A DNA stretch of 64,000 bases from Candidatus Hydrogenedentota bacterium. GTDB taxonomy: Bacteria; Hydrogenedentota; Hydrogenedentia; Hydrogenedentales; JAEUWI01. The DNA lies in NCBI GenBank assembly GCA_019637335.1, contig JAHBVV010000002.1, positions 248,001 to 312,000 of the forward strand, given 5' to 3'. Positions 6,709 to 54,865 of this stretch are shown piece after piece (the first letter of the stretch is position 1; each line of letters starts with the position of its first letter). The notes below the pieces were generated by a model. That model saw nothing but the letters and a program-made list of their open reading frames with translations. It had not been told where the DNA came from and ran no database searches. The position numbers were made by a program, and so were the translations under genes.

Positions 6709-7602
6709 ATGGCCAGCACGCGCAAACCGAAGATTATCTCCGGCAAGGAGCTCTCCGAAGAGATCCGGGCGGAACTGAAGGTGGATGTTGAGGCCATCGC
6801 CCGCGCCGGGGTGCGGCCGGGGCTTGCGGTGGTCCTGGTGGGCGAGGATCCGGCGAGCCAGGTGTATGTCGGGAGCAAGCGCCGGACCTGCGAGGAGTTG
6901 GGGATCAACTCCTACTCCCACGACCTGCCGGCGAATTGCACCGAGAAGCGGCTGCTCGGGCTGATCGAGAAGCTGAACGCCGATCCGGACGTCCACGGCA
7001 TCCTGGTGCAGATGCCCCTCCCGAAGCATATCGACGAGAAGAAGGTCATCAACGCCATCAACCCCGACAAGGACGTGGACGGCTTCCACCCGGTCAATGT
7101 CGGCAAGCTCCTCATCGGCGAGCCGGCCTTCGTCTCGTGCACGCCGGCGGGCTGCATCGAGATGCTCCTGCGCAGCGGCTACGACCCGGCCGGCAAGCAT
7201 GTGGTCGTGCTGGGCCGCTCCAACATCGTGGGCAAGCCCGTCGCGGCGCTCCTCATGCAGAAGGCGGCGGGGGGCAACGCCACCGTGACCGTGTGCCACT
7301 CGCGCACGAAAAATCTGGCATCGATCACAAAGCAGGCGGACATTCTCATCGCGGCGATCGGCATTCCCCAGTTCGTGAAGGCGCGGATGGTGAAGGACGG
7401 CGTTATCGTGATCGACGTCGGCATCAACCGCATCCCCGACAAGACCAAAAAATCGGGGACCCGCCTCGTCGGCGACGTGGACTTCAAGGGGGTCAGTAAG
7501 AAGGCCCGCGCGATCACCCCGGTGCCCGGCGGCGTCGGCCTGATGACGGTCACGATGCTGATGAAGAACACCGTCGAGGCCGCGCGGCGCGTTGCGCGGT
7601 GA
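6709..7602 (+). CDS. folD: Bifunctional methylenetetrahydrofolate dehydrogenase / methenyl-THF cyclohydrolase
   Basis: This 297-aa FolD interconverts 5,10-methylene-THF, methenyl-THF and 10-formyl-THF using NADP in the cytoplasm. Visible signatures are the catalytic Lys region ([14 protein letters not shown]), [10 protein letters not shown], the folate/NAD interface [15 protein letters not shown], the Rossmann segment [17 protein letters not shown], and the C-terminal [19 protein letters not shown]. The ATG at 6709 is preceded by GGGAGGAAAGG; the frame is open further upstream but without family similarity. Together with metH and metF nearby it forms a one-carbon/methionine neighbourhood. Length is normal for the family. 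Confidence 0.97.
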
Positions 7603-7612
7603 CGGCGCGGGT

Positions 7613-7775
7613 TGCGCAATTTTATGGAGCGCCAGCGACCCGCTGGCCCGGTGTCGAAGACACCGGAATTCTCGCGCATGTTACTTAAGTACCGGCCAGT
7701 CTCTGAGAGGGCCGGCGATACGAAGCAATTCAATTGCGCCGGTGGCGCAAGGCCGGCGGGCCGCCGGCGCTCCAT
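7613..7775. repeat. REP-A element 1 (inverted REP pair, MITE-like)
   Basis: The element is about 163 bp. It begins TGCGCAATTTTATGGAGCGC and ends in the inverted form (GGCCGGCGGGCCGCCGGCGCTCCAT), each end itself an imperfect palindrome. Its centre contains GGTGTCGAAGACACC. It is directly repeated at 7794-7958 with a near-identical centre. A third, more diverged relative sits at 8697-8861, on the other side of the RAYT gene. Such paired REPs (BIME-like) are the known substrates of RAYT transposases. Confidence 0.8.
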
Positions 7776-7793
7776 GGGACTTTCTTGCGCTGT

Positions 7794-7958
7794 TGGCGCA
7801 ATATTATGGAGCGCCAGCGGCCCGCTGGCCCGGTGTCGAAGACACCGGAATTCTCGCGCATGTTACTTAAGTACCGGCCAGTCTCTGAGGAGGGCCGGCG
7901 ATACGAAGCAATTCAATTGCGCCGGTGGCGCAAAGCCGGCGGGCCGCCGGCGCTCCAT
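7794..7958. repeat. REP-A element 2, direct copy of element 1
   Basis: It has the same architecture and nearly the same sequence as 7613-7775: a TGGAGCGCCAGCGGCCCGC end, a GTGTCGAAGACAC centre and a GGCGGGCCGCCGGCGCTCCA end. The two copies differ by few substitutions and small indels, so the duplication is recent. Confidence 0.8.
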
Positions 7959-8045
7959 ACGTATGGGGCACCCACCACGGTGCGCCTTCGAGCGGCGCTT
8001 CATACGTATGGCCGCCCACCACGGCGCGCCTTCGCCCGGCGCTCC
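7957..8045. repeat. Two 44-45 bp direct repeats
   Basis: Unit one (7957-8000) and unit two (8001-8045) both start CATACGTATGG, share CCCACCACGG and GCGCCTTCG, and end CGGCGCT. The start of each is part of a palindrome (CCATACGTATGG in the first). They sit directly between REP-A element 2 and the 3' end of the RAYT gene. No coding capacity. Confidence 0.65.
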
Positions 8046-8073
8046 AGAGTTTCGCGCTTCAGAATGGCTACTC

Positions 8074-8643
8074 TCAGCCTTCGACTCGAAATCGGTTACT
8101 GCTGTAAGGCCAATCCACGGCGAACTCTCCGAGCCCCGCGTTCACCGGGTTGTCCTCTACATAACAAATCGTATATTCCAAGTGCTCCGGACTCCGCATG
8201 TACCGGTCGAAAACTTCGCGCTGCCACACACTTCCTCGCCTGCCGATAATCTTGTTTATTCGGTGCGCGGTATAGGACTTCCACGTATGCGTTACCTCCT
8301 CAAGTGAAGGCGACTCGAACATCTCGGCGATTGCGTGAACGTGGTTGGGCATGACACACCAGGCCAGGAGTCGGTAGCGTTCGCCATCGAAGTGGCGCAG
8401 GTTGTCTTCCACCAGGGTCGCGACTTCCGGGCGACGCAGCCAGCAGGCGCCGTGCCCTTTGTCCAGGTAGTGCTCAATTCGCCGATAGCGCTCAAGCTCG
8501 TCAATCTCACCTAGCCGCTTTGCCTCTTCGATTGCATCGAGTACCGTCTTGGGCATCGAGTCGACGAGTCGGTAGGTAAGGAACTGGATCGTACCCGGTG
8601 CATCGAAGTGTGGAAGGTAGCCCCTGGAATACCAGCCGCGCAT
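8074..8643 (-). CDS. REP-associated tyrosine transposase (RAYT), Y1/HUH family
   Basis: This 189-aa protein has the HUH-type motif MPNHVHAI (around residue 95) and the downstream Tyr in REVFDRYMRS that would be the catalytic nucleophile. It ends with the family-like ICYVEDNPVNAGL segment, which matches the IS200/IS605-related RAYT branch. RAYTs cut single-stranded REP hairpins and are thought to disperse them. The gene lies between REP-A elements (7613-7958 and 8697-8861), the expected context. It is a paralogue of 11229-11801 (both start MRGWYSRGYLPH) but is flanked by a different REP family. It looks intact. Confidence 0.9.
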   Translation of the reverse strand: MRGWYSRGYLPHFDAPGTIQFLTYRLVDSMPKTVLDAIEEAKRLGEIDELERYRRIEHYLDKGHGACWLRRPEVATLVEDNLRHFDGERYRLLAWCVMPNHVHAIAEMFESPSLEEVTHTWKSYTAHRINKIIGRRGSVWQREVFDRYMRSPEHLEYTICYVEDNPVNAGLGEFAVDWPYSSNRFRVEG

Positions 8644-8696
8644 ATTGATTCCCCTTTTCGTATGGCGTCGAATCAGGAACGTAGTATAGCAGACGC

Positions 8697-8861
8697 AAAG
8701 CGCAATTCTATGAAGCGCCGGCGGGCCGTTGGCCGGATGTCGGAGACACCGGATTTCCCGCGCATGAAGGAAATCGCGGGACTTTCAAGTGTAGACGCCG
8801 GGTGAAGCGGGTGTCCCGTTTGCGCCGATGGCGCAAGGCCGGCGGGCCGCCGGCGCTCCAT
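8697..8861. repeat. REP-A element 3
   Basis: The left end CGCAATTCTATGAAGCGCCG and the right end (GGCGGGCCGCCGGCGCTCCA) form inverted REP units around a centre with GTCGGAGACACC, matching elements 1 and 2 in layout but diverged inside. It directly abuts the displaced metH tail starting at 8865. Confidence 0.75.
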
Positions 8862-8864
8862 AAA

Positions 8865-8965
8865 TCAGGTATACCTTGCCTCGGGGTGGAAGCTGCATAC
8901 CGCGCCGGTGGTTCCGGTGGGGCTGAATTCGCTGGCGCCGGTGAGCTTCACCCCGATCAACGCAA
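8865..8965 (-). pseudogene. Displaced metH 3'-end copy
   Basis: Read on the minus strand, this stretch encodes LIGVKLTGASEFSPTGTTGA and then VCSFHPEARYT with a TGA stop at 8867-8865. It is the last about 32 codons of MetH with only two residues changed (Glu to Ala, Asp to Gly). Over 99 bases there are 13 differences from the real metH end (12237-12335), and 11 of them are synonymous. There is no upstream metH sequence, so it is a fragment and not a gene. It is a direct repeat of the metH end on the other side of the DUF4034/RAYT segment. Confidence 0.85.
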
Positions 8966-8993
8966 CACGCCCACATGTATACACGCCACCCGC

Positions 8994-10805
8994 CTACCGG
9001 GTTATTGCGTTCTTTGCCTCGCGCAGGGCCAGTTGCGCGGACAGGGTGTCGGTCCATTCCTTCTTGTATTCCTCCGACCCCGGCGCGGGGAGGGCCGCCG
9101 CGGTGGCGCGCGCCTCTTCCAGCAGCGCCAGGGCTTCCGCCGCCTTGCCCTGCCCGTGGACGGCCATGGCGTGGAAGGCCTGGGCCAGGCTGCGAATGTA
9201 GAGGCTCTTGTCGTCGACGGCCCTGGCCAGCCAGGCGGCCGCCTCGCCGTGATTACCCAGGCGGTATTCCGCCATGCCGTGGGAAAGGTGGAACCACGGC
9301 AGGAGATCGGCCTCGCCCGCCTTCGCCGCGGCCTCCACCGCGTAGCGCGTCCGCCGGGCGGCTTCGGCCAGCAGCGCCGGATCGTGCGGCCCGGCAAACA
9401 GCAGGTAGCCCTTCACCGACCGCTCCGCGTCCGTGGCGAGGTCCGCGTCCTGGTAGCGTTCGATCAGCCAGCGGCAGTGGGCCTCCAGGCTGGCGGCGTC
9501 CCCCGCCGCCGCATGGACCACGGCGATCTTGTGGCCGTGGATGGCTTCGATGGCGTCGGGGTGGTTGGCCTTGACCGATTCGAAGGCCGAGATGGATTTG
9601 GGATAGCGCTGATCGCCCGCCAGGCGAAGGGCGTCGGCCAAATGCGATTGCGCGAACGCCTCTGTGCGCTTCCGATCGAACTCCACGATATCGCTGAACG
9701 CACTCCCCTCCGGGTAGACATTCCCCAACTTCTCGAACCAATGCGCGGCCTTGTCTGAACGGCCCGCAAGTGCCGCATATCCGGCCGCATCCCCTATGAG
9801 GTGAACATCGTCCGGCGACTGCTCGAGAAGCGCCTCGGTAGCGGCCAGATGGCTCTCATGATAACTGGGATAGTCCTTGTCCGCCTCTTCGGAACGCTGC
9901 CGCTTGGAATAGAATTCCAGCGTAGCCAGCAGCTGAAAGGCGTCGCCTTTGGCTGCGGTTTTTGCGGCCCGATCATCGGCGAGCCTCCACGAACCACCGT
10001 AGAAGGTCGGTTGTCCATAGTGTATCCAGGCCATGTGGGCGTCGTAATGATAGGGGGCAATCGCGACCGCATTTGCGAAGGAAGTATCGATTTTCTGTTG
10101 GTCCTCCCGCAGGGACGCCCAGACGCTGATCAGGCGAGCATGCGGCTCCGGGTCCTCTGGGCTCATCCTCGCCGCCGCAAGCAGGTCCGCATTGGCCTGG
10201 CGTAACTGCTCACGCGGGTCGACCCAGCCCGCACCGGCAGATACCGCTGTCAGCGGGTAGCCGTGAAACTCCCAGTAATACTTGTAACTGAAACCGCCAC
10301 GGATCAGGCGGGCATGGTGTGAATCCGGGCGCGTTTCGACCCAGGCGTCCAACACTCTGAGCATGTCGATGGGATGTTCCGCCGGGGAGAGTCCACACAA
10401 ACGCTCAACATGCTGGCTGTAGCGTTGAGATTCGAGCGGGGTTTCACACGCCCCGAGTTGAGCGACGAGGCGCGCCTCCACAGCGTCGAAATCCTGCTCG
10501 ATGTAGAGCTTGGATCGCGTATCATCGTGGAGCGGTACGGTCTGATAGAGGTTATCCAGCTTCCGCGCCGCAATAGCCGCGTCCAATTCCCGCTGTTGCT
10601 CCTGGTAGCGCGCCTGATAACCCGCCCAGAGATCAGCGACTTCCGGTCCGTCCCTACGATCATGGACACGAAAGAATCGACCATCTACGAATAGAGATTG
10701 AATGAGGTAAGGCCCGCCAAGCACCGCCGCGAACGCAAGTATTCCAAGCACAGCAGCCGCGCCCGCCAGCCCCGCGATCAGGAACTTAACCTGGGAATCC
10801 TTCAT
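8994..10805 (-). CDS. DUF4034-like / TPR-rich membrane-anchored protein
   Basis: This 603-aa protein has one N-terminal membrane helix (about residues 8-35, LIAGLAGAAAVLGILAFAAV) and then a helical domain. WVETRPDSHHARLIRGGFSY and the W-rich, Asp/Pro-bounded helices resemble DUF4034. TPR-like pairs follow (AAGYAALAGRSDKAAHWFEK, HGMAEYRLGNHGEAAAWL). It is predicted to be anchored in the inner membrane with the bulk outside or cytoplasmic; function unknown. It lies alone between REP/RAYT units and is bounded by the two metH-tail repeats, so it may be cargo of a transferred segment. The family call rests on pattern memory and is moderate. Confidence 0.7.
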   Translation of the reverse strand: MKDSQVKFLIAGLAGAAAVLGILAFAAVLGGPYLIQSLFVDGRFFRVHDRRDGPEVADLWAGYQARYQEQQRELDAAIAARKLDNLYQTVPLHDDTRSKLYIEQDFDAVEARLVAQLGACETPLESQRYSQHVERLCGLSPAEHPIDMLRVLDAWVETRPDSHHARLIRGGFSYKYYWEFHGYPLTAVSAGAGWVDPREQLRQANADLLAAARMSPEDPEPHARLISVWASLREDQQKIDTSFANAVAIAPYHYDAHMAWIHYGQPTFYGGSWRLADDRAAKTAAKGDAFQLLATLEFYSKRQRSEEADKDYPSYHESHLAATEALLEQSPDDVHLIGDAAGYAALAGRSDKAAHWFEKLGNVYPEGSAFSDIVEFDRKRTEAFAQSHLADALRLAGDQRYPKSISAFESVKANHPDAIEAIHGHKIAVVHAAAGDAASLEAHCRWLIERYQDADLATDAERSVKGYLLFAGPHDPALLAEAARRTRYAVEAAAKAGEADLLPWFHLSHGMAEYRLGNHGEAAAWLARAVDDKSLYIRSLAQAFHAMAVHGQGKAAEALALLEEARATAAALPAPGSEEYKKEWTDTLSAQLALREAKNAITR

Positions 10806-11228
10806 GATTGCTTCGCCTCCACTCGCAACGGATTCTTCGATATTTATGTTTCAATACAGTCGAATACCACATCCTACACAAATCCGGGGATGTCCCGCGA
10901 GCCGCACGGTGTTAATATGTCCGAGAGCGTGTCCAGCGCCATTTCCGCATTAAACTGCGCAACCCCAGCCGCTTGTCACCTGCTTCAGCGTTCAGGCGCA
11001 CCCCACCGCTCAGCAGGCGGGGACGCCCGCGCTCTCTGCCTTGCGCGGTTACTATTGAATGATCGCGGCGGCTGGGTCGGCGTCCGGCGCCGATCAAAAA
11101 GCCTCGCAGATCCGGCCCGCGCTTCCAGCCCCGCACCGTTTCTGGCCTTGACACGGCGTAATCCGGTTGCTAACCTGTGCTACTGGCTATCCGCACAAAG
11201 CTGTTGCACCACTATGGAGGACACGTGT
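10806..11228. other. Intergenic region with a REP-B half-site
   Basis: There is no supportable gene here. It holds a REP-B unit at 11013-11050 (AGGCGGGGACGCCCGCGCTC then TGCCTTGCGCGGTTA). This is the same family and orientation as the unit at 12148-12183, downstream of the next RAYT gene. GGAGG at 11216-11220 is the ribosome binding site of that gene. Confidence 0.6.
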
Positions 11229-11801
11229 ATGCGCGGCTGGTATTCCCGGGGCTATCTACCCCATCTCGACGAACCCGAGCGAATCCAGTTCATCACGTAC
11301 CGTCTGGCGGACTCCATGCCACAGTCCTATTTGGATGCCGTGGATGAGGCGTTGCGGCGCGGCGAGATCACGGAGGCCGGTCGCCGAAAGCGAATTGAAC
11401 ATTACCTCGACCAGGGCTATGGCGCGTGCTGGCTGAAGGACGCCGCCATTGCCCGGATGGTGGAAAACAGCCTGAGGCACTATGACGGCGAGCGCTATCG
11501 ATTGCTCGCGTGGTGCGTCATGCCGAATCACGTCCATGCGTTGGCGGAAATGGTGGAAGGGTATCCGCTGGAAGATGTGGTCCAGAACTGGAAGTCCTAC
11601 ACGGCGCACGAAATGAACCGCCTGCTTGAACGGCGCGGACGCGTCTGGCAACCGGAAGGTTTCGACCGATACATCCGTGACGAGGTTCACTTTCATCGCG
11701 TTGTCGGCTACATCGAAGACAATCCCGTAAACGCGGGCCTCGTGGCCGACGCTGGAGGATGGCTCTGGAGCAGCGCGCGGTTCCGCGGGGACGAGCCGTG
11801 A
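11229..11801 (+). CDS. REP-associated tyrosine transposase (RAYT), second paralogue
   Basis: This 190-aa Y1/HUH transposase begins MRGWYSRGYLPHLDEPERIQ and carries the HUH-type motif MPNHVHAL, the catalytic Tyr in EGFDRYIRDEVHF and the C-terminal YIEDNPVNAGLVADAG. The ATG at 11229 has GGAGG eight bases upstream; the frame is open further upstream without similarity to the family. It is flanked by REP-B units (11013, 11855, 12015, 12148), a family distinct from the REP-A units around the first RAYT. It appears intact and presumably acts on REP-B hairpins. Confidence 0.9.
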   Translation: MRGWYSRGYLPHLDEPERIQFITYRLADSMPQSYLDAVDEALRRGEITEAGRRKRIEHYLDQGYGACWLKDAAIARMVENSLRHYDGERYRLLAWCVMPNHVHALAEMVEGYPLEDVVQNWKSYTAHEMNRLLERRGRVWQPEGFDRYIRDEVHFHRVVGYIEDNPVNAGLVADAGGWLWSSARFRGDEP

Positions 11802-12236
11802 AGTGGGCGCAAAGGCTCCGCCCAACCGCTTCCGCGCGAACTGACAATGGATAGAGCGCAAGGCTGGGAGCGCAGGTCAAGGACGCGGCGGAGGCGGGCT
11901 GCCCGGACTGCAAAGCGCCGAAGGCGCTGTACATCCGCGAAGGGAGCGCACACTTCACCACATATAGCCAAAGTCCCAGGCCAACCGCTAACGCCCAAAC
12001 TAAACCCATGAAGAGCGCAAGGCTGGGAGCGCAGGCGTCCCCGCCTGCATCATGCGCCAACGGCGCATGAATTGAGTTCGCTTGCGCTGGGTCTTGTGCT
12101 GAATGCGATTAATCGCAACGTGTAAATGAACGCACCTCCGGTGCGTTGCAGGCGGGGACGCCTGCGCTCCCAGCCTTGCGCGGTTATTATTGCAGGATCG
12201 GGATGACCGGGTCGGGAAACGCGTCTTGCCGCCCCC
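11802..12236. repeat. REP-B units between RAYT 2 and metH
   Basis: A single unit (GCGCAAGGCTGGGAGCGCAGG) starts at 11855. An inverted pair lies at 12015-12049 (AAGGCTGGGAGCGCAGGCG...) and 12148-12183 (the same, reverse complemented). Between the paired units sit three small hairpins: ATGCGCCAACGGCGCAT, TGCGATTAATCGCA and AACGCACCTCCGGTGCGTT. This is a BIME-like composite. No gene is seen in this 435-base stretch. Confidence 0.8.
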
Positions 12237-15200
12237 TCAGGTATACCTTGCCTCGGGGTGGAAGCTGCACACCGCCCCCGTCGTCCCGGTTGGGCTGAAT
12301 TCGCTGGCGTCGGTGAGTTTTACGCCGATGAGCTCTTCGCCGCCGAGCAGGCTGTGGATGGTGGCGTTGAGGTGGATGTTGCGGAGGCCGGGGTAGCCGG
12401 GGCTCCAGCGCTGGCCCTGGTTTGGGGCGGCGCCGAGGAGCTCGCGCATGAGCCCGTGGAGGTGCTCGGCCATGTCTTCGGCGACGCGGTCGGACAGGCC
12501 CTGGAGGAGGAGCGTGGATTCGGAATCGCCGGAGGCTTTCATCTCGTCGATGAACGCGTCCACCTGCGGGCCGCTGGTGGTGAGCTGGATGCCGATGGCG
12601 CTCATCTGGCCGCTTCCGGCGGGGTGGAAGTACTGCGAGCCCGCGACGGTGTCCTTCTTTTCGCCGCCGAGTACGACGGTGAAGTCGAAGCGGGCGATTT
12701 CGCGGGTGTGGTCCTCGGGGTCGTATACGATGACGGTGTCGCCGTCGGCCTGGCAGGGGTAGATCCCCATGACGCCCTGGGGGACGATCCAGGCGTTGGC
12801 GGTGGCTTTTTCGACCCACTCTTCCAGCAACGCGTCGAGCTTCTCCTGGGTGTGGCCCTGCTTTTCGCGGGCGGCCTTGCCGCCGTAGCGCCAGTTCAGG
12901 GAGTAAAGCGTTTTCCTGTCGAGGTGCGCGGCGAATTCCCGCAGCGTGTAGGTTACTTTGCGGCGGGCGAAGCGCGGGGCTTCGGGCAGCTCGAAGCCGT
13001 CGAACGAGATGGCCCGGCGCGGGAGCGTCTCCAGGAGTTCCTTGTCCGCCGCGGCGCGTTTTTCGGCGCGCTCCAGGCGGCGCATGAGTTTCTCCTTGTT
13101 CTGCTGGTAGAACGCGCTGAGGTCGCCCGCCGAGCGCAGCTTGTTCATCACGTTCACGCCGTCCATCGCGGTGCGGCAGTAGAACACGTTCTCGCGCATG
13201 GTTTCCGGCTCGGTCCGGTTGGCCATGGCGACGTAGGCCGCGTGGCGATCGCTCACGGGCGCTCCGCCGATCAGGATGGGGATGTGCAGGCCCTGCTCCT
13301 CCATCATCGAGGCGACGGTAATCATGTGGTTCGAGGTCTGCACGAGCAGCGCGGACATGCCGATGGCGTGGGCGTTGTGCTCTTTCGCGGCGTCGATGTA
13401 GCCCTGGAGCGGGGTCATCGTGCCCAGGTCGATCACACGGTAGCCGTAGTTCTCCAGCAGGGTCCGGGCGAGGTCCTTGCCGATCGAGTGCACGTCCTGG
13501 TAGACGGTGCCGATCACGACGACGCCCTTGTACTCGATCTTGCTGTGGATATCGACGCCGGCCTGGTTCCGCATGTACTGCTCCAGGAAGCCCATCGCCT
13601 GGCGCATGACGTCGGCGGATTTCAGCAGGTGCGGCAGGGACACCTCGCCGCGCCCGAAGCCGTCGCCCAGCTCCTGCATCGCGCCCATGAGGTGCTCGTT
13701 GATGAACTCCAGCGGCTCGTGCTTGTCCATGGCCTGGGCCACCTGGAGCACGATCTTGTCGGCGTATTCGTAGGTGTGGCCGCGGTATTCCAGGGATCCC
13801 TTGGACCGCTCTTTGAAGCCATCCTTGATTTTCTCGCAGATGGCGCGCTCCAGCGGCAGGTCGTCGTAACTCGTGCGCCGCACCACCACCGCGCCGGTCT
13901 TCCGCTCGGCGATATCCTCCAGTTCGGCGAAGGCGTCCATATCGCGATCGAGAATGGCGCGCCGCCCGAGTTCGTAGTCGTTCGGGTCGATATCCTCGAC
14001 GAACACGTAGTGGTTCGGATTGATAATGGCGGAGTCCAGGCCCATTTTCCGGGCTTCGTCGATGAAGATGGAGGTCAGGACCTTGCGCATGTAGGGCTTT
14101 TTCGCGAGGCCATTGGTCAGGTTGCCGACACCGAGCGTGGTGTTGACGGTCGGGTACTTTTCCTTGACCAGCCGGATGCCCTCCAGCGTCTCCACGACAA
14201 AATTGAGCCCCTCCACGGATTCGGAGCCGAGGGGGAAGCAGTTCACGTCGATAAAGAGGCGGTCCGGCGTGACGCCGTAGCGATCGCGGGCGCGGTCGAG
14301 GATCTGGCTGGCGAGATCGAGCTTCTCGTCGCGCGTGGCGCCGGGTCCCTTCGGTCCGGTGCACAGCCCCACGTAGCAGGGGTTGTGCGCGTTCACGGCG
14401 TCGAGCACCGCGTCAATCTTGAGCAGGCCGGGCGAGGCCTCCTCCATCGAGATGGAGTTGATGAGCGGGCGGCCGGGATAGCGCTTGATCGCCTCCTCCA
14501 GCGCGTCCACCTGGAAGGAGTCGATGCACATCGCGCCGGGGAAGTCGGTGGTTTGCACGTGCACCACCTCGGAGAGCGCGGCAGCGGTGTCGATCTGGTT
14601 CGAGTCCATGCACACATCGATCACGGTGCAGCCCAGTTCGCGCACCTGCTCGTGGACCACCTCCTCCAGCGCATCGTGATCGATGCCGGTGTCGTTCTCC
14701 ACCGCCTCGCGCACCTTGAGCGAGCCGCGCACATTCAGGCGCTCGCCGATCTGGATCAGCGTCTTCGATCCATCCAGCAGCACGGCCTGCTGCGGCCCGG
14801 AGAGATACAGGCCTTTTTCCGGCTTCCGCGCCTTCGGCTTGAGCCCGCGCACCTGGTCCGCCACACACTTGATGTGCGCGGCGGTCGTGCCGCAGCAACC
14901 GCCCACGAGGTTCACGCCGTATTGCTCGGCGAACTTGCGCTGGTAGCGGCCGAACTCCTCCGGGGGGAACTTGAACACGGTCTTGCCGTCCACCGACTGC
15001 GGGAGGCCCGCGTTGGGCACCACGGACACGGGAATATGGCTGTAGCGGCAGAGCTTTTCGACCGTTTTCTCCATGAGATCCGGGCCGATGCTGCAGTTGA
15101 TGCCGAACACGTCGATCCCGATGCCCTGCATGGTGACCAGGGCGGCCTGGATGTCGGTGTTGAAGATCTGCATCTTGGAGAACTGGTCCACGGTCACCTG

Positions 15201-15860
15201 GCAGATGATCGGGAGCTTCACGCCCGCCTCCCTCATTGCCTGCTGCCCGCCCATCACGGCGGCCTTCAGCTCCAGGATGTCCTGCTGCGTTTCGTAGAGC
15301 AGCACGTCGGCCCCGCCGTCGATCATCCCGCGCACCTGGTGGTGGAAGTTCTCCATGATCGCTTCGTAGGTGGACTCGGTCAGGTCCGCCTTCGTGCTGG
15401 AGAGCACGCGGTTGGACGGCCCGATGGACCCGAACACGAACAGGGGCCGCCCGTCGTAGTCCGGCTCCTGCTTGTACGCCTCCCGCGCCTCGCACGCGAT
15501 CTCGCAGCCGCGGCGGCTCATGAAATACGCCAGCGCGTCGTAGTCGTTGCCCCGGAAATCCATCTCGGCGTAGGGGATGGGCGCGAAGTGTGTCAGGTCG
15601 ATGCCCGAGAAATCGTACTCCGAAAGGCGCATCGGCGACGCGCCGAAGGTATTGGTCTCCACCGCGTGCGCGCCCGCCCGATAATAGTTCAAATGGATGT
15701 TCTTCATGTCCTCCGGCCGCGAAAACGACAGCAGATCCGAGAGCATCTTGAAATCGCTGCCGCCGAAGGACTCATCGCCAAGATACAGGTCTTGAATCGC
15801 GGTGCCCGTGGCGCCGTCCAGCACCACGATCTGTTCTTTCAAGACATCGAGAAAATTCAT
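12237..15860 (-). CDS. metH: Cobalamin-dependent methionine synthase
   Basis: This 1207-aa protein, close to the usual length, transfers the methyl group of methyl-THF via B12 to homocysteine. Domain order is: homocysteine/Zn domain at about 1-330 (LDGATGTAIQDLYLGDES; Zn ligands in GINCSIGPD and GGCCGTT); pterin-binding domain at about 350-620 (IGERLNVRGS); B12 cap and binding domains at about 640-890 (DVHSIG, the His ligand of cobalamin); C-terminal activation domain with RWSPGYPG that binds S-adenosylmethionine. The ATG at 15860 (MNFLDVLKEQIVVLDG) is chosen because it starts the family match and has a GGAG upstream. The frame is open 28 codons further. It is divergent from metF. Confidence 0.97.
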   Translation of the reverse strand: MNFLDVLKEQIVVLDGATGTAIQDLYLGDESFGGSDFKMLSDLLSFSRPEDMKNIHLNYYRAGAHAVETNTFGASPMRLSEYDFSGIDLTHFAPIPYAEMDFRGNDYDALAYFMSRRGCEIACEAREAYKQEPDYDGRPLFVFGSIGPSNRVLSSTKADLTESTYEAIMENFHHQVRGMIDGGADVLLYETQQDILELKAAVMGGQQAMREAGVKLPIICQVTVDQFSKMQIFNTDIQAALVTMQGIGIDVFGINCSIGPDLMEKTVEKLCRYSHIPVSVVPNAGLPQSVDGKTVFKFPPEEFGRYQRKFAEQYGVNLVGGCCGTTAAHIKCVADQVRGLKPKARKPEKGLYLSGPQQAVLLDGSKTLIQIGERLNVRGSLKVREAVENDTGIDHDALEEVVHEQVRELGCTVIDVCMDSNQIDTAAALSEVVHVQTTDFPGAMCIDSFQVDALEEAIKRYPGRPLINSISMEEASPGLLKIDAVLDAVNAHNPCYVGLCTGPKGPGATRDEKLDLASQILDRARDRYGVTPDRLFIDVNCFPLGSESVEGLNFVVETLEGIRLVKEKYPTVNTTLGVGNLTNGLAKKPYMRKVLTSIFIDEARKMGLDSAIINPNHYVFVEDIDPNDYELGRRAILDRDMDAFAELEDIAERKTGAVVVRRTSYDDLPLERAICEKIKDGFKERSKGSLEYRGHTYEYADKIVLQVAQAMDKHEPLEFINEHLMGAMQELGDGFGRGEVSLPHLLKSADVMRQAMGFLEQYMRNQAGVDIHSKIEYKGVVVIGTVYQDVHSIGKDLARTLLENYGYRVIDLGTMTPLQGYIDAAKEHNAHAIGMSALLVQTSNHMITVASMMEEQGLHIPILIGGAPVSDRHAAYVAMANRTEPETMRENVFYCRTAMDGVNVMNKLRSAGDLSAFYQQNKEKLMRRLERAEKRAAADKELLETLPRRAISFDGFELPEAPRFARRKVTYTLREFAAHLDRKTLYSLNWRYGGKAAREKQGHTQEKLDALLEEWVEKATANAWIVPQGVMGIYPCQADGDTVIVYDPEDHTREIARFDFTVVLGGEKKDTVAGSQYFHPAGSGQMSAIGIQLTTSGPQVDAFIDEMKASGDSESTLLLQGLSDRVAEDMAEHLHGLMRELLGAAPNQGQRWSPGYPGLRNIHLNATIHSLLGGEELIGVKLTDASEFSPTGTTGAVCSFHPEARYT

Positions 15861-15942
15861 GCATGTGCTCCGGGTCGTGCGGGGGAATTGGGCCGGTGAA
15901 TGCCGGAATCCGGGTATCGAATTCGCGGGAAACGGGTCGTTC

Positions 15943-15971
15943 ATTGTACCATTGCGCGGGAAGACGGGTAA
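15943..15971 (-). promoter_or_regulatory. Candidate metH promoter
   Basis: On the minus strand TTACCC (15971-15966) and TACAAT (15948-15943) are separated by 17 bases, about 85 bases before the metH start. The -10 is good and the -35 weak. No SAM riboswitch fold is apparent in the leader. Confidence 0.4.
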
Positions 15972-35292: not shown

Positions 35293-35372
35293 GGGGACTG
35301 CCTCCGGCTGGCACGGATGCGATCCCCTCGAACAACCACCGTATACCAGCCGGTGGCTGTACCCGTGGAAAC
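35293..35372 (-). repeat. Inverted, diverged relative of the 170-bp array unit
   Basis: Read on the minus strand this contains CGGGTACAGCCACCGGCTGG and then GCATCCGTGCCAGCCGGAGG with CAGTCCCC. These match two segments of the 170-bp unit in the same order and spacing class, with a different spacer. It lies before the array in opposite orientation. Confidence 0.65.
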
Positions 35373-35396
35373 CAGTATCTCAAACAAAGAAGCGGC

Positions 35397-35430
35397 AAAG
35401 GCTGGGAGCGCAGGCGTCCCCGCCTGCCAG
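35397..35430. repeat. REP-B unit
   Basis: AAAGGCTGGGAGCGCAGGCG followed by TCCCCGCCTGCC matches the REP-B units at 12015 and 12148. A shorter partial match (CGCGCAAGGCTGGGATCGCA) occurs at 45201-45220. Confidence 0.75.
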
Positions 35431-35456
35431 GCGGCGAAGCCGCCGTCTTTTTTTTT
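35430..35456 (+). terminator. Intrinsic terminator of the exopolysaccharide cluster
   Basis: GGCGGC-GAA-GCCGCC is followed by GTC and nine T residues, about 145 bases after the glycosyltransferase stop and immediately after a REP-B unit. Confidence 0.8.
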
Positions 35457-35489
35457 CATCCGTAACGGGTGACGCAACGCGTCATGATT

Positions 35490-36107
35490 GCCTGTACCCG
35501 TGGAAAACACTTTTCGCGGGTACAGGCACCGGCTGGATTACCGCATCCGTTTCCGGCTTCGGGCATCCTTGCCAGCCGGAGGCGGTCCCCGGGGACTGGC
35601 TCCCGAGCCCCAGTGCGCGAAGTCGCGAAAGCGTGAAACGATCACCGTGAAGCGAGGGCGCCTGTACCCGTGGAGAACACTTTTCGCGGGTACAGCCACC
35701 GGCTGGATTACCGCATCCGTTTCCGGCTTCGGGCATCCCTACCAGCCGGAGGCGGTCCCCGGGGACTGGCTCCCGAGCCCCAGTGCGCGAGGTCGCGAAA
35801 GCGTGAAACGATCACCGTGAAGCGAGGGTGCCTGTACCCGTGGAGAGCACTTTTCGCGGGTACAGCCACCGGCTGGATTGCCGCATCCGTTTCCGGCTTC
35901 GGGCATCCCTGCCAGCCGGAGGCGGTCCCCGGGGACTGGCTCCCGAGCCCCAGTGCGCGAAGTCGCGAAAGCGTGAAACGATCACCGTGAAGCGAGGGTG
36001 CCTGTACCCGTGGAGAACACTTTTCGCGGGTACAGCCACCGGCTGGATTACCGCATCCGTTTCCGACTTCGGGCATCCCTGCCAGCCGGAGGCGGTCCCC
36101 GGGGACT
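35490..36107. repeat. 170-bp direct repeat array, block 1 (units 1-3 and the left part of unit 4)
   Basis: Units start with GCCTGTACCCGTGGA at 35490, 35660, 35830 and 36000, exactly 170 bp apart and nearly identical. Unit 4 stops at 36107 after GGGGACT, where the inserted segment begins. Each unit contains a 9-10 bp hairpin CCTGTACCCG / CGGGTACAG(G), a second inverted pair CCGGCTGG / CCAGCCGG and the perfect palindrome GTCCCCGGGGAC. The period is not a multiple of three and ORFs do not continue across units, so the array is non-coding. No CRISPR-like spacers. Confidence 0.92.
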
Positions 36108-41733: not shown

Positions 41734-42086
41734 AGCGCCTCCTTTTGCACTCCTGAGACCCGCGCCGTCCGTCCAGGGTTTTGCCGCAGGGCAATCGCAT
41801 TTAAACTTCCAATTCGAGCCGAGCGCCACATGAATCACCTTCAACGTTAAAAAGGGCGCGTGTTGGAGCGCTGGCATTTCGCCTGCGGCGAATCCCGGAC
41901 CTTGCCGGCAAAGATGCCGGCGCTCCAAGACGCTCACTATCGTTGATTCAAGGTTCCAAATCGACTCAAGTTTACGCCCATATACCGAGATCGAGTTTAA
42001 ATGCGATTGCTCTGGGTTTTGCCGCGCAAGAACTCGACGAGACGCGACTTCCCACCAGGGGATGAAGCGTTCCTCTAGCGGCGCGA
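41734..42086. repeat. Intergenic nested inverted repeats, REP-A-like
   Basis: There is no gene here. The outer arms GCAATCGCATTTAAAC (41791-41806) and GTTTAAATGCGATTGC (41995-42010) are perfect 16-bp inverted repeats. The inner arms TTGGAGCGCTGGCAT and ATGCCGGCGCTCCAA (within 41862-41932) differ at one position and resemble REP-A ends. GGGTTTTGCCGC occurs in direct orientation just outside both outer arms. Confidence 0.65.
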
Positions 42087-44951: not shown

Positions 44952-45179
44952 CTATTTCGGTACGTAGAGCACGGCGGCGGCGAGAGCGGGGGGCATTTCT
45001 CCGGTTTCCCACAGATTTGCGTAGAACGCCACAGATATGAGGTAGAGACCGGCAGCCGGTACCGGCACACCGGCGAGGGGATAGTATTCGAAGTAGGAGC
45101 TCTCCTGGCCTAAGGAGATGGAGTATTTCTGATCGCTACACTTTAGCCATATGAAGTGGCGCCAGCCCATTCTTGTCAT
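44952..45179 (-). CDS. Possible 75-aa protein, unknown
   Basis: The frame runs from MTRMGWRHFIWLKCSDQKYS to AAAVLYVPK. It is rich in aromatic residues and has varied, plausible codon use on the minus strand. A hairpin with a short T-run lies 54 bases after its stop. There is no clear ribosome binding site and I recognise no family. It may be a real small protein or the remnant of a longer one. Confidence 0.3.
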   Translation of the reverse strand: MTRMGWRHFIWLKCSDQKYSISLGQESSYFEYYPLAGVPVPAAGLYLISVAFYANLWETGEMPPALAAAVLYVPK

Positions 45180-45641
45180 GCCGCGATACTACGACGAGAG
45201 CGCGCAAGGCTGGGATCGCACTTCCGTTGCGGCGCGGGTTTGTGCCGTCGAGAAATCAAGTCCACTTTATTCCGCTAAAGTGTTACTTCTGATCTATCTG
45301 TGCGGATCTGCGCGAGTCTACAGGAAAATTGCTTCGTTGCGGCGAAAGGTTTGATCTATCCTCTCCGCGCCCAATCAGGTTTCTTGTTGCCTGGGCGCCT
45401 GGCTGCGGGCCTGGGAAAAGGCCGGCTTTATGAAACGAATATCGGTTTCTTATTTGTGTCCATTCGTGTCCATTCGTGGTTAAACTGCCACTCAGGTTCA
45501 GATAGCTAACGTGTTATGAAACCACGAAATGGGTGCGTTGGCATACTGCATGTTACGCCGGACCGCCGGAGTCCGCGGAACGCTCAGCGGCTGAGCCGTT
45601 GGATTGGCCTGGACGCACTCTTAAACCGCCTGGGATCCCGG
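45180..45641. other. Gene-poor spacer with relic repeats
   Basis: No supportable gene. It holds a partial REP-B match at 45201-45220 and a short tandem duplication GTGTCCATTC-GTGTCCATTC near 45456-45476. Confidence 0.5.
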
Positions 45642-54614: not shown

Positions 54615-54652
54615 GGCAGCCGCTCCGAGTATTGGGCGGCTGCCATTTTTTT
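54615..54652 (+). terminator. Intrinsic terminator of the FKBP gene
   Basis: GGCAGCCG (54615-54622) pairs with CGGCTGCC (54637-54644), followed by ATTTTTTT, about 25 bases after the stop. Confidence 0.9.
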
Positions 54653-54717
54653 AACATTTCAGCGGTCTGAAGTGCGGAACAGTATGTGTTTTTGATAATG
54701 GAGCCGGTGTGCATGGT

Positions 54718-54762
54718 GCGCCGTCGGCGCAATCTGCCGGCGGGCCGCCGGCGCTCCATAGT
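54718..54762. repeat. Solitary REP-A right-half unit
   Basis: TGCGCCGTCGGCGCAATC followed by GCCGGCGGGCCGCCGGCGCT and CCAT matches the right ends of the REP-A elements at 7739-7775 and 8819-8861. No partner unit is within a few hundred bases. Confidence 0.75.
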
Positions 54763-54865
54763 TGCACGTAGCCTTAAATTCAACAAGTTGCTCTAGTTTG
54801 GCCACGGTATTTCGTTCGGCCAAAGTGATACCCATTTTTTACCCGCGTCCCGAGGAGCCCGCATC

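Follow-up and report, generated by a model that had tools for sequence, protein, structure and literature searches.

The window analysed here, a 64,000-nt stretch of the genome of a Candidatus Hydrogenedentota bacterium (C2:248001-312000 of the 7.16-Mb assembly G000), carries two genes for REP-associated tyrosine transposases (RAYTs), RAYT1 and RAYT2, which are flanked by two families of repetitive extragenic palindromes (REPs), REP-A and REP-B, respectively. The proteins are 64% identical over 186 residues, in keeping with the paralogy asserted in the original prediction for this DNA; the separation of four kilobases given there has to be corrected, as the divergently oriented genes have 5′ ends 2.6 kb apart and a full span of 3.7 kb. 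Both proteins begin with MRGWYSRGYLPH and conserve an HVH motif at residues 101–103 and Tyr161, as had been predicted. The HUH and catalytic-tyrosine fold, the match to the NCBIfam RAYT model NF047646 and the flanking inverted REPs place the pair among RAYTs, with RAYT2 scoring over the 80-bit cut-off of that model and RAYT1 falling 4 bits under it. The motif beside the tyrosine is NPVNAG in both, with an asparagine where the described motif NP(L/V)(R/K)xG has an arginine or lysine (PMC2817692). An AlphaFold2 model of RAYT1 (pLDDT 90.2, pTM 0.84) has as its top structural match 4er8 (E 1.1e-8), the complex of the E. coli RAYT with a REP hairpin. The genome holds 12 Y1_Tnp matches, among them a third close paralog, R3 (L183, contig C28), which is flanked by further GGAG hairpins.

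REP-A and REP-B follow a single design, in which the guide GGAG and a single spacer base, C, precede a hairpin with a stem of 7 bp and a short loop. The REP-A hairpin is GCCGGCG-gcc-CGCCGGC and that of REP-B is GCAGGCG-tccc-CGCCTGC, so that the two differ at stem pair 3 (C-G versus A-T) and in the loop (gcc versus tccc); the guide is preceded by TAT in REP-A and by GGCTG in REP-B. The claim that each RAYT has its own REP family therefore holds for what flanks each gene and fails for the design of the repeats, which had seemed unlike because they were aligned from different starts. Their common guide, spacer and stem frame rule out two unrelated families. Two further classes, REP-C (GGAGC-GCGGGCG-gcc-CGCCCGC) and REP-D (GGAGC-GCCGGCA-), also occur. 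At up to three mismatches, AAGGCTGGGAGCGCAGG has 7 matches in the window versus 0.39 expected, and the REP-A head pattern 11 versus 5.05. Genome-wide, at up to one mismatch, we count 111 copies of REP-A and 83 of REP-B, with no match to a reversed-pattern control, and 57 of REP-C. Like canonical REPs, REP-A and REP-B place a hairpin behind a guide and are dispersed in many copies; their guide, GGAG, lies outside GT[A/G]G, the sole guide termed canonical in the available text of PMC3686654, PMC8266576 and PMC6006769. As the start of a word, GGAG has no occurrence in the main texts of PMC2817692, PMC3686654, PMC3733652, PMC6006769 and PMC8266576.

At residues 81 and 142 the two RAYTs differ in parallel with their hairpins, the contrast of N81/R142 in RAYT1 with S81/P142 in RAYT2 matching the REP-A/REP-B differences exactly. 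RAYT relatives from 147 genomes and 80 named loci gave 136 distinct loci, of which 110, spread over many phyla, have a repeated guide and hairpin within 600 bp (shuffled mean 0.6); the guides are GGAG in 55, GTAG in 17, GGAC in 11, GGAA in 8, GTGG in 7 and others in 12. Tree-aware covariation was computed for 99 of the 136 loci; the others were dropped because their guide was not repeated or did not belong to an accepted class, or because the domain was broken, short or missing. With a caller that admits no base other than G or T at the second guide position, this base agrees with residue 147 in 99 of 99 loci (T with H, 22/22; G with R, T or K, 77/77), and both switch on the same four branches, a result that none of 170 tree simulations equalled. 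In the alignment, residue 147 corresponds to E. coli H101, which is discussed among the guide-interacting residues (PMC6006769).

Pair 3 and the loop were analysed in the 70 GG-guide loci whose stems start with GC; seven traits were tested, each over all alignment columns, and the p-values are uncorrected across traits. Where pair 3 is C, residue 142 is arginine in 34 loci and another residue in one; where it is not C, the numbers are 6 and 29 (family-wise p 0.05; close-pair contrasts 11:0, with 6 ties). A loop beginning with g is found in all six loci with N81 and in 1 of the 64 without it (family-wise p 0.025; close-pair contrasts 5:0, with 1 tie). Loop length is associated with residue 176 (family-wise p 0.05), the best column for spacer length is 13 (family-wise p 0.06), and no column comes near significance for stem pair 4. 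A reading of guide base 4 by residue 141 was set aside and is kept as a lead only, with a family-wise p of 0.055 and held-out exceptions, seen by eye, at L363 and L343. Within the genus, the sister genomes G001, G002 and G003 were compared: residues 81/142 are N/T in G002, with a gcc loop and A at pair 3, and A/R in G001, with a tccc loop and C at pair 3, so that RAYT1, RAYT2 and these two RAYTs cover all four combinations with matching hairpins. The suggestion that the two genes form a natural pair for studying RAYT specificity is thereby borne out, residues 81 and 142 changing in step with the hairpin.

A further 159 loci served as a held-out set; they were hand-chosen from 40 named genomes and from the class to which one of these belongs, represented by 274 genomes. 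After 11 loci near-identical to the training sample and 36 lacking W-x5-[DE]-X-x2-R had been dropped, and 28 had proved to have no readable guide, 84 were counted. H at position 147 accompanies GT in 67 of these and, by script, GG in two (L428 and L417), both of which read GTAG by eye; all 11 loci of this clade with R or T have GG. One locus combines A with GG. Outside the motif, L352 has an aligned R and the guide GTAG. Residue 81 agrees with the loop in 12 of 12 cases (11 loci and G002, by eye), including N81 with g in L103 and L341, and residue 142 with pair 3 in 10 of 11 (by eye; L341, with a different stem, left out); these loci are few, akin to the training set and were read with the rule already known. 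Searches for additional RAYTs gave one distant match in plasmids and none in phages or viral contigs.

On this basis, the two sister RAYTs probably each recognise their own flanking REP as a folded single strand, reading the guide alike and the hairpin differently, with miniature inverted-repeat transposable elements (MITEs) having multiplied the REPs independently. The GGAG guide would be read by both enzymes through Q141, D146, R147 and R150 in strand 140–148, and the hairpin by residue 142 of the same strand together with residue 81 in helix 72–84 (positions of the model). N81/R142 of RAYT1 would then select a g-first loop and a C-G pair 3, and S81/P142 of RAYT2 a t-first loop and an A-T pair 3; here an arginine could plausibly face the G of the C-G pair. 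Residues 81 and 142 may well contact the DNA, and RAYT1 and RAYT2 would cleave their cognate single-stranded REPs. We are evenly divided on a more general proposal, namely that RAYTs have a readable code: guide base 2 would be specified by residue 147, the third stem pair by residue 142, and the opening base of the loop by residue 81. A cognate REP could then be predicted from the protein, and a change of specificity would take no more than one or two substitutions, RAYT1 and RAYT2 being an example.

Several observations weigh against this account of RAYT1 and RAYT2. The guide caller is restricted to two bases at guide base 2, and family-wise p-values of just 0.025 for the loop and 0.05 for pair 3 were reached with seven traits tested. 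Six R142 loci have a pair 3 other than C, the held-out locus L338 combines P142 with C at pair 3, and R3, with A/R at 81/142, has T at pair 3 and mixed loops. REP-C, the partner hairpin of RAYT2's REP-B, has a g-first loop. Group-3-like RAYTs pair R147 with GTGG in 3 of 3 readable cases, which breaks any universal R147-G rule. We also considered that both RAYTs have the same specificity, for GGAG and any 7-bp hairpin. In that case REP-A and REP-B would simply have diverged by drift next to their genes, and residues 81 and 142 would be passengers. RAYT1 and RAYT2 do share the guide and the guide residues, the B and C hairpins, unlike in pair 3 and loop, stand within one element, and E. coli TnpAREP tolerates loop and upper-stem changes (PMC8266576); group-3 enzymes, however, need particular loop bases (PMC8266576), and the residues associate repeatedly, in a branch-matched manner, with pair 3 and loop. 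We regard a shared specificity as unlikely, and prefer hairpin reading that differs between the two enzymes.

Counts of REP-A and REP-B across the genome and their distances to each RAYT had been proposed as a check, and when run they proved misleading. MITE ends flanking the REP pairs would explain why neither the number of copies nor their distance tracks RAYT1 and RAYT2. The genome contains 42 typed heads-out REP pairs under 400 bp, that is, REPINs, of which 11 are AA, 5 BB and 26 BC, with none mixing A with B or C (typing used 100 of the 111 REP-A positions). Equal association of both families with both RAYT lineages was thus not seen; the support is weak, because the copies descend from few MITE events. 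In 12 distinct BC copies, conservation of the flanks extends over about 80 bp, with inverted repeats GTAAYACTWTAGCSGNWTGAAGT at the ends. We rejected the idea that RAYT2 had made a REPIN with B at one end and C at the other, since the flanks extend to terminal inverted repeats (TIRs) with target duplications. C1:1-800000 holds 24 BC TIR pairs, and 13 of these are accompanied by an 8-bp duplication, with up to one mismatch allowed. The TIRs of IS66 elements begin with GTAA and yield 8-bp duplications. An IS66-family transposase is encoded in G000 (PF03050, E 2.1e-38), 1,525 bp lying between like TIRs; this copy has no clear target duplication. The BC and AA elements share with IS66-family MITEs the GTAA start of the TIRs, the 8-bp duplication and a resident partner transposase, and differ from them in having a REP pair at the centre. 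REP-D elements are 228 bp long, have TIRs of 21 bp and are bordered by 10-bp duplications; these are exact in 4 of the 12 elements in C1:1-800000 and in the single element of the window. At up to three mismatches, ends of the first TIR number 284 in G000 and those of the second 166, and the sister genomes have 0 to 8.

Three of the repeats predicted elsewhere in the window belong to MITEs. The supposed partial REP-B at 45201 is in fact part of an IS66-like BC MITE without a REP pair and with an 8-bp target duplication; a second such element lies at C1:734276-734427, and their one common junction reflects either the state before insertion or a deletion that has spread. The REP-A-like end at 41862 instead represents REP-D in its 228-bp MITE with a 10-bp duplication, and that at 54718 is indeed REP-A, in an AA MITE remnant. 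The REP-B at 35397 is real and lies in a longer repeat, B2 (window 35330-35500 and copies in C1), where REP-B is followed by two more hairpins and a T-rich stretch, with conserved sequence extending about 75 and 60 bp on the two sides; a coding role for B2 was rejected, as it has no consistent frame. At L275:920 (C5:27419) the arm of a REP-D MITE leads into a REP-A, the switch falling at the GGAG head, so that hairpins appear swappable between MITEs. MITE transposition, we infer, copied REPs, and TIR-ended MITEs that took them up would then have spread them genome-wide independently of the RAYTs; much of the REP dispersal is explained in this way. Neither resident RAYT is a full match for REP-C, which has gcc as its loop and G at pair 3 and may come from a lost RAYT.

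These contexts raise the question of whether REPs are simply structural parts of MITEs, with little tie to RAYT action, and the RAYT genes merely lie near such repeats. In C1:1-800000 and the window, 9 of 9 REP-C copies are in BC arms and 17 of 19 REP-D copies in MITE arms (2 in none), as that account would have it. In the same region, the 16 REP-A copies divide into 5 in MITE arms, 6 in tandem arrays and 5 in neither, and the 17 REP-B copies into 6 in BC arms, 7 in B2 repeats and 4 in none, one of the last being the window's B2 copy at 35405. MITE arms are absent, however, from every REP copy adjoining RAYT1 or RAYT2, and guide-and-hairpin repeats lie beside most RAYT genes in many phyla. Furthermore, the REP-A, REP-B and REP-C copies at up to one mismatch number 1, 10 and 0 in G001, 0, 0 and 1 in G002 and 17, 0 and 0 in G003, and the surroundings are unlike MITE arms for 11 of 11 REP-A copies in G003 and 9 of 11 REP-B copies in G001. 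By eye, these look like plain REPs that share little beyond the unit; no RAYT with a matching REP was found in G003 (REP-A 17) or G001 (REP-B 10). A purely structural role for REPs in MITEs is accordingly very improbable. The REP-A tandem arrays (C6:233020-233449, C21:42010-42338 and C7:229892-230117) have a 51-bp period, mostly one orientation, and resemble the repeated left part of the AA MITE.

The RAYT/REP system itself is of a known kind. E. coli TnpAREP (4er8; PMC8266576) resembles the pair in its fold, its HUH motif and tyrosine, and its hairpin with a 5′ guide, and its W94, Q95 and R104 are conserved as W140, Q141 and R150. Unlike the E. coli system, the pair has the guide GGAG rather than GTAG, R rather than H at E. 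coli position 101, and a short perfect stem without a bulge. It has been published that RAYTs have REPs of their own, that one genome may hold several RAYTs and that related enzymes can differ in their REPs (PMC2817692, PMC3686654, PMC6006769). Group 3 RAYTs of Pseudomonas and Stenotrophomonas, with their REP orthogroups and 'orthoswitch', likewise have short perfect palindromes, and related enzymes use different REPs, even two per genome; their guides differ, being GT[A/G]G, and neither a residue code nor MITE capture is described in the available text (PMC3686654). In TIRYTs/TIRtrons, known also from Acidobacteria, RAYT-like genes are likewise flanked by non-GTAG inverted repeats (PMC3733652). 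In the literature searched, which left most subscription papers outside, no paper linked RAYT either to IS66 and MITE together or to Hydrogenedent-, and GG guides, the residue code and MITE capture were not found in the accessible parts of the RAYT literature. According to the available text of PMC8266576, the short perfect-palindrome kind has no structure. How a RAYT selects its own REP is unsettled outside E. coli, and the present pair with about 100 relatives supplies named residues and bases for a cleavage assay. REPs reach well past GT[A/G]G guides, and searches built on GT[A/G]G would miss them. In addition, REP copy number can mirror hitch-hiking on MITEs rather than RAYT activity.

Table 1. 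RAYT genes, REPs and REP-related elements in the window.
Feature	Position	Strand	Remarks
RAYT1, 189 aa, N81/Q141/R142/R147	8074..8643	-	Y1_Tnp E 1.9e-6; NF047646 76 bits
RAYT2, 190 aa, S81/Q141/P142/R147	11229..11801	+	Y1_Tnp E 2.3e-8; NF047646 84.5 bits
REP-A pair (REPIN), ends GCCAGCG-acc-CGCTGGC and GCCGGCG-gcc-CGCCGGC	7625..7774	.	flanks RAYT1
REP-A pair, 3′ side of RAYT1	7807..7957	.	
REP-A pair, 5′ side of RAYT1, one head GAAG	8711..8860	.	
REP-B, degenerate, upstream of RAYT2	11013..11046	-	
REP-B, truncated, downstream of RAYT2	11853..11876	+	
REP-B inverted pair (BB REPIN), downstream of RAYT2; perfect inverted arms, 35 nt	12015..12181	.	
REP-B within B2 repeat context	35398..35427	+	
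MITE, 228 bp, with REP-D; TIR CAGGGCAATCGCATTTAAACT; 10-bp target duplication	41787..42014	.	
IS66-like BC MITE without REP pair; 8-bp target duplication	45135..45286	.	
AA MITE remnant with single REP-A	54650..54840	.	bounds approximate, by eye

The RAYT pair is bordered by FolD-like and MetH-like genes (6709-7602 and 12237-15944), which, from their translations, we take to belong to one-carbon metabolism. An Rfam scan of the window matched a single tRNA and nothing else. Upstream of R3 (L183:2820-3060), a sequence resembles, by eye, one half of the REP-D MITE and ends in its TIR. A divergent RAYT subfamily with WW-NYWD/NFWET instead of WQ..D-H/R (L323, L324, L335, L350 and L290) is flanked by repeated hairpins headed by GGAGT- or GGAGTA-. 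Apparent RAYT fusions of 740–1040 aa (L107, L115, L135 and L142) contain no second Pfam domain and are probably open frames of GC-rich DNA. In a Bacteroidales record (L172:223-2232) a RAYT domain shares one open frame with an MmeI-type restriction-modification protein, and in an Ereboglobus record (L175:3025-4350) with a creatininase, each being a fusion or an in-frame neighbour. Finally, RAYT frames in L076, L078, L105, L115, L132 and L135 open with REP-like coding (AGRDAGAPS, GARASRPQ), as if a REP overlapped the start of the gene.

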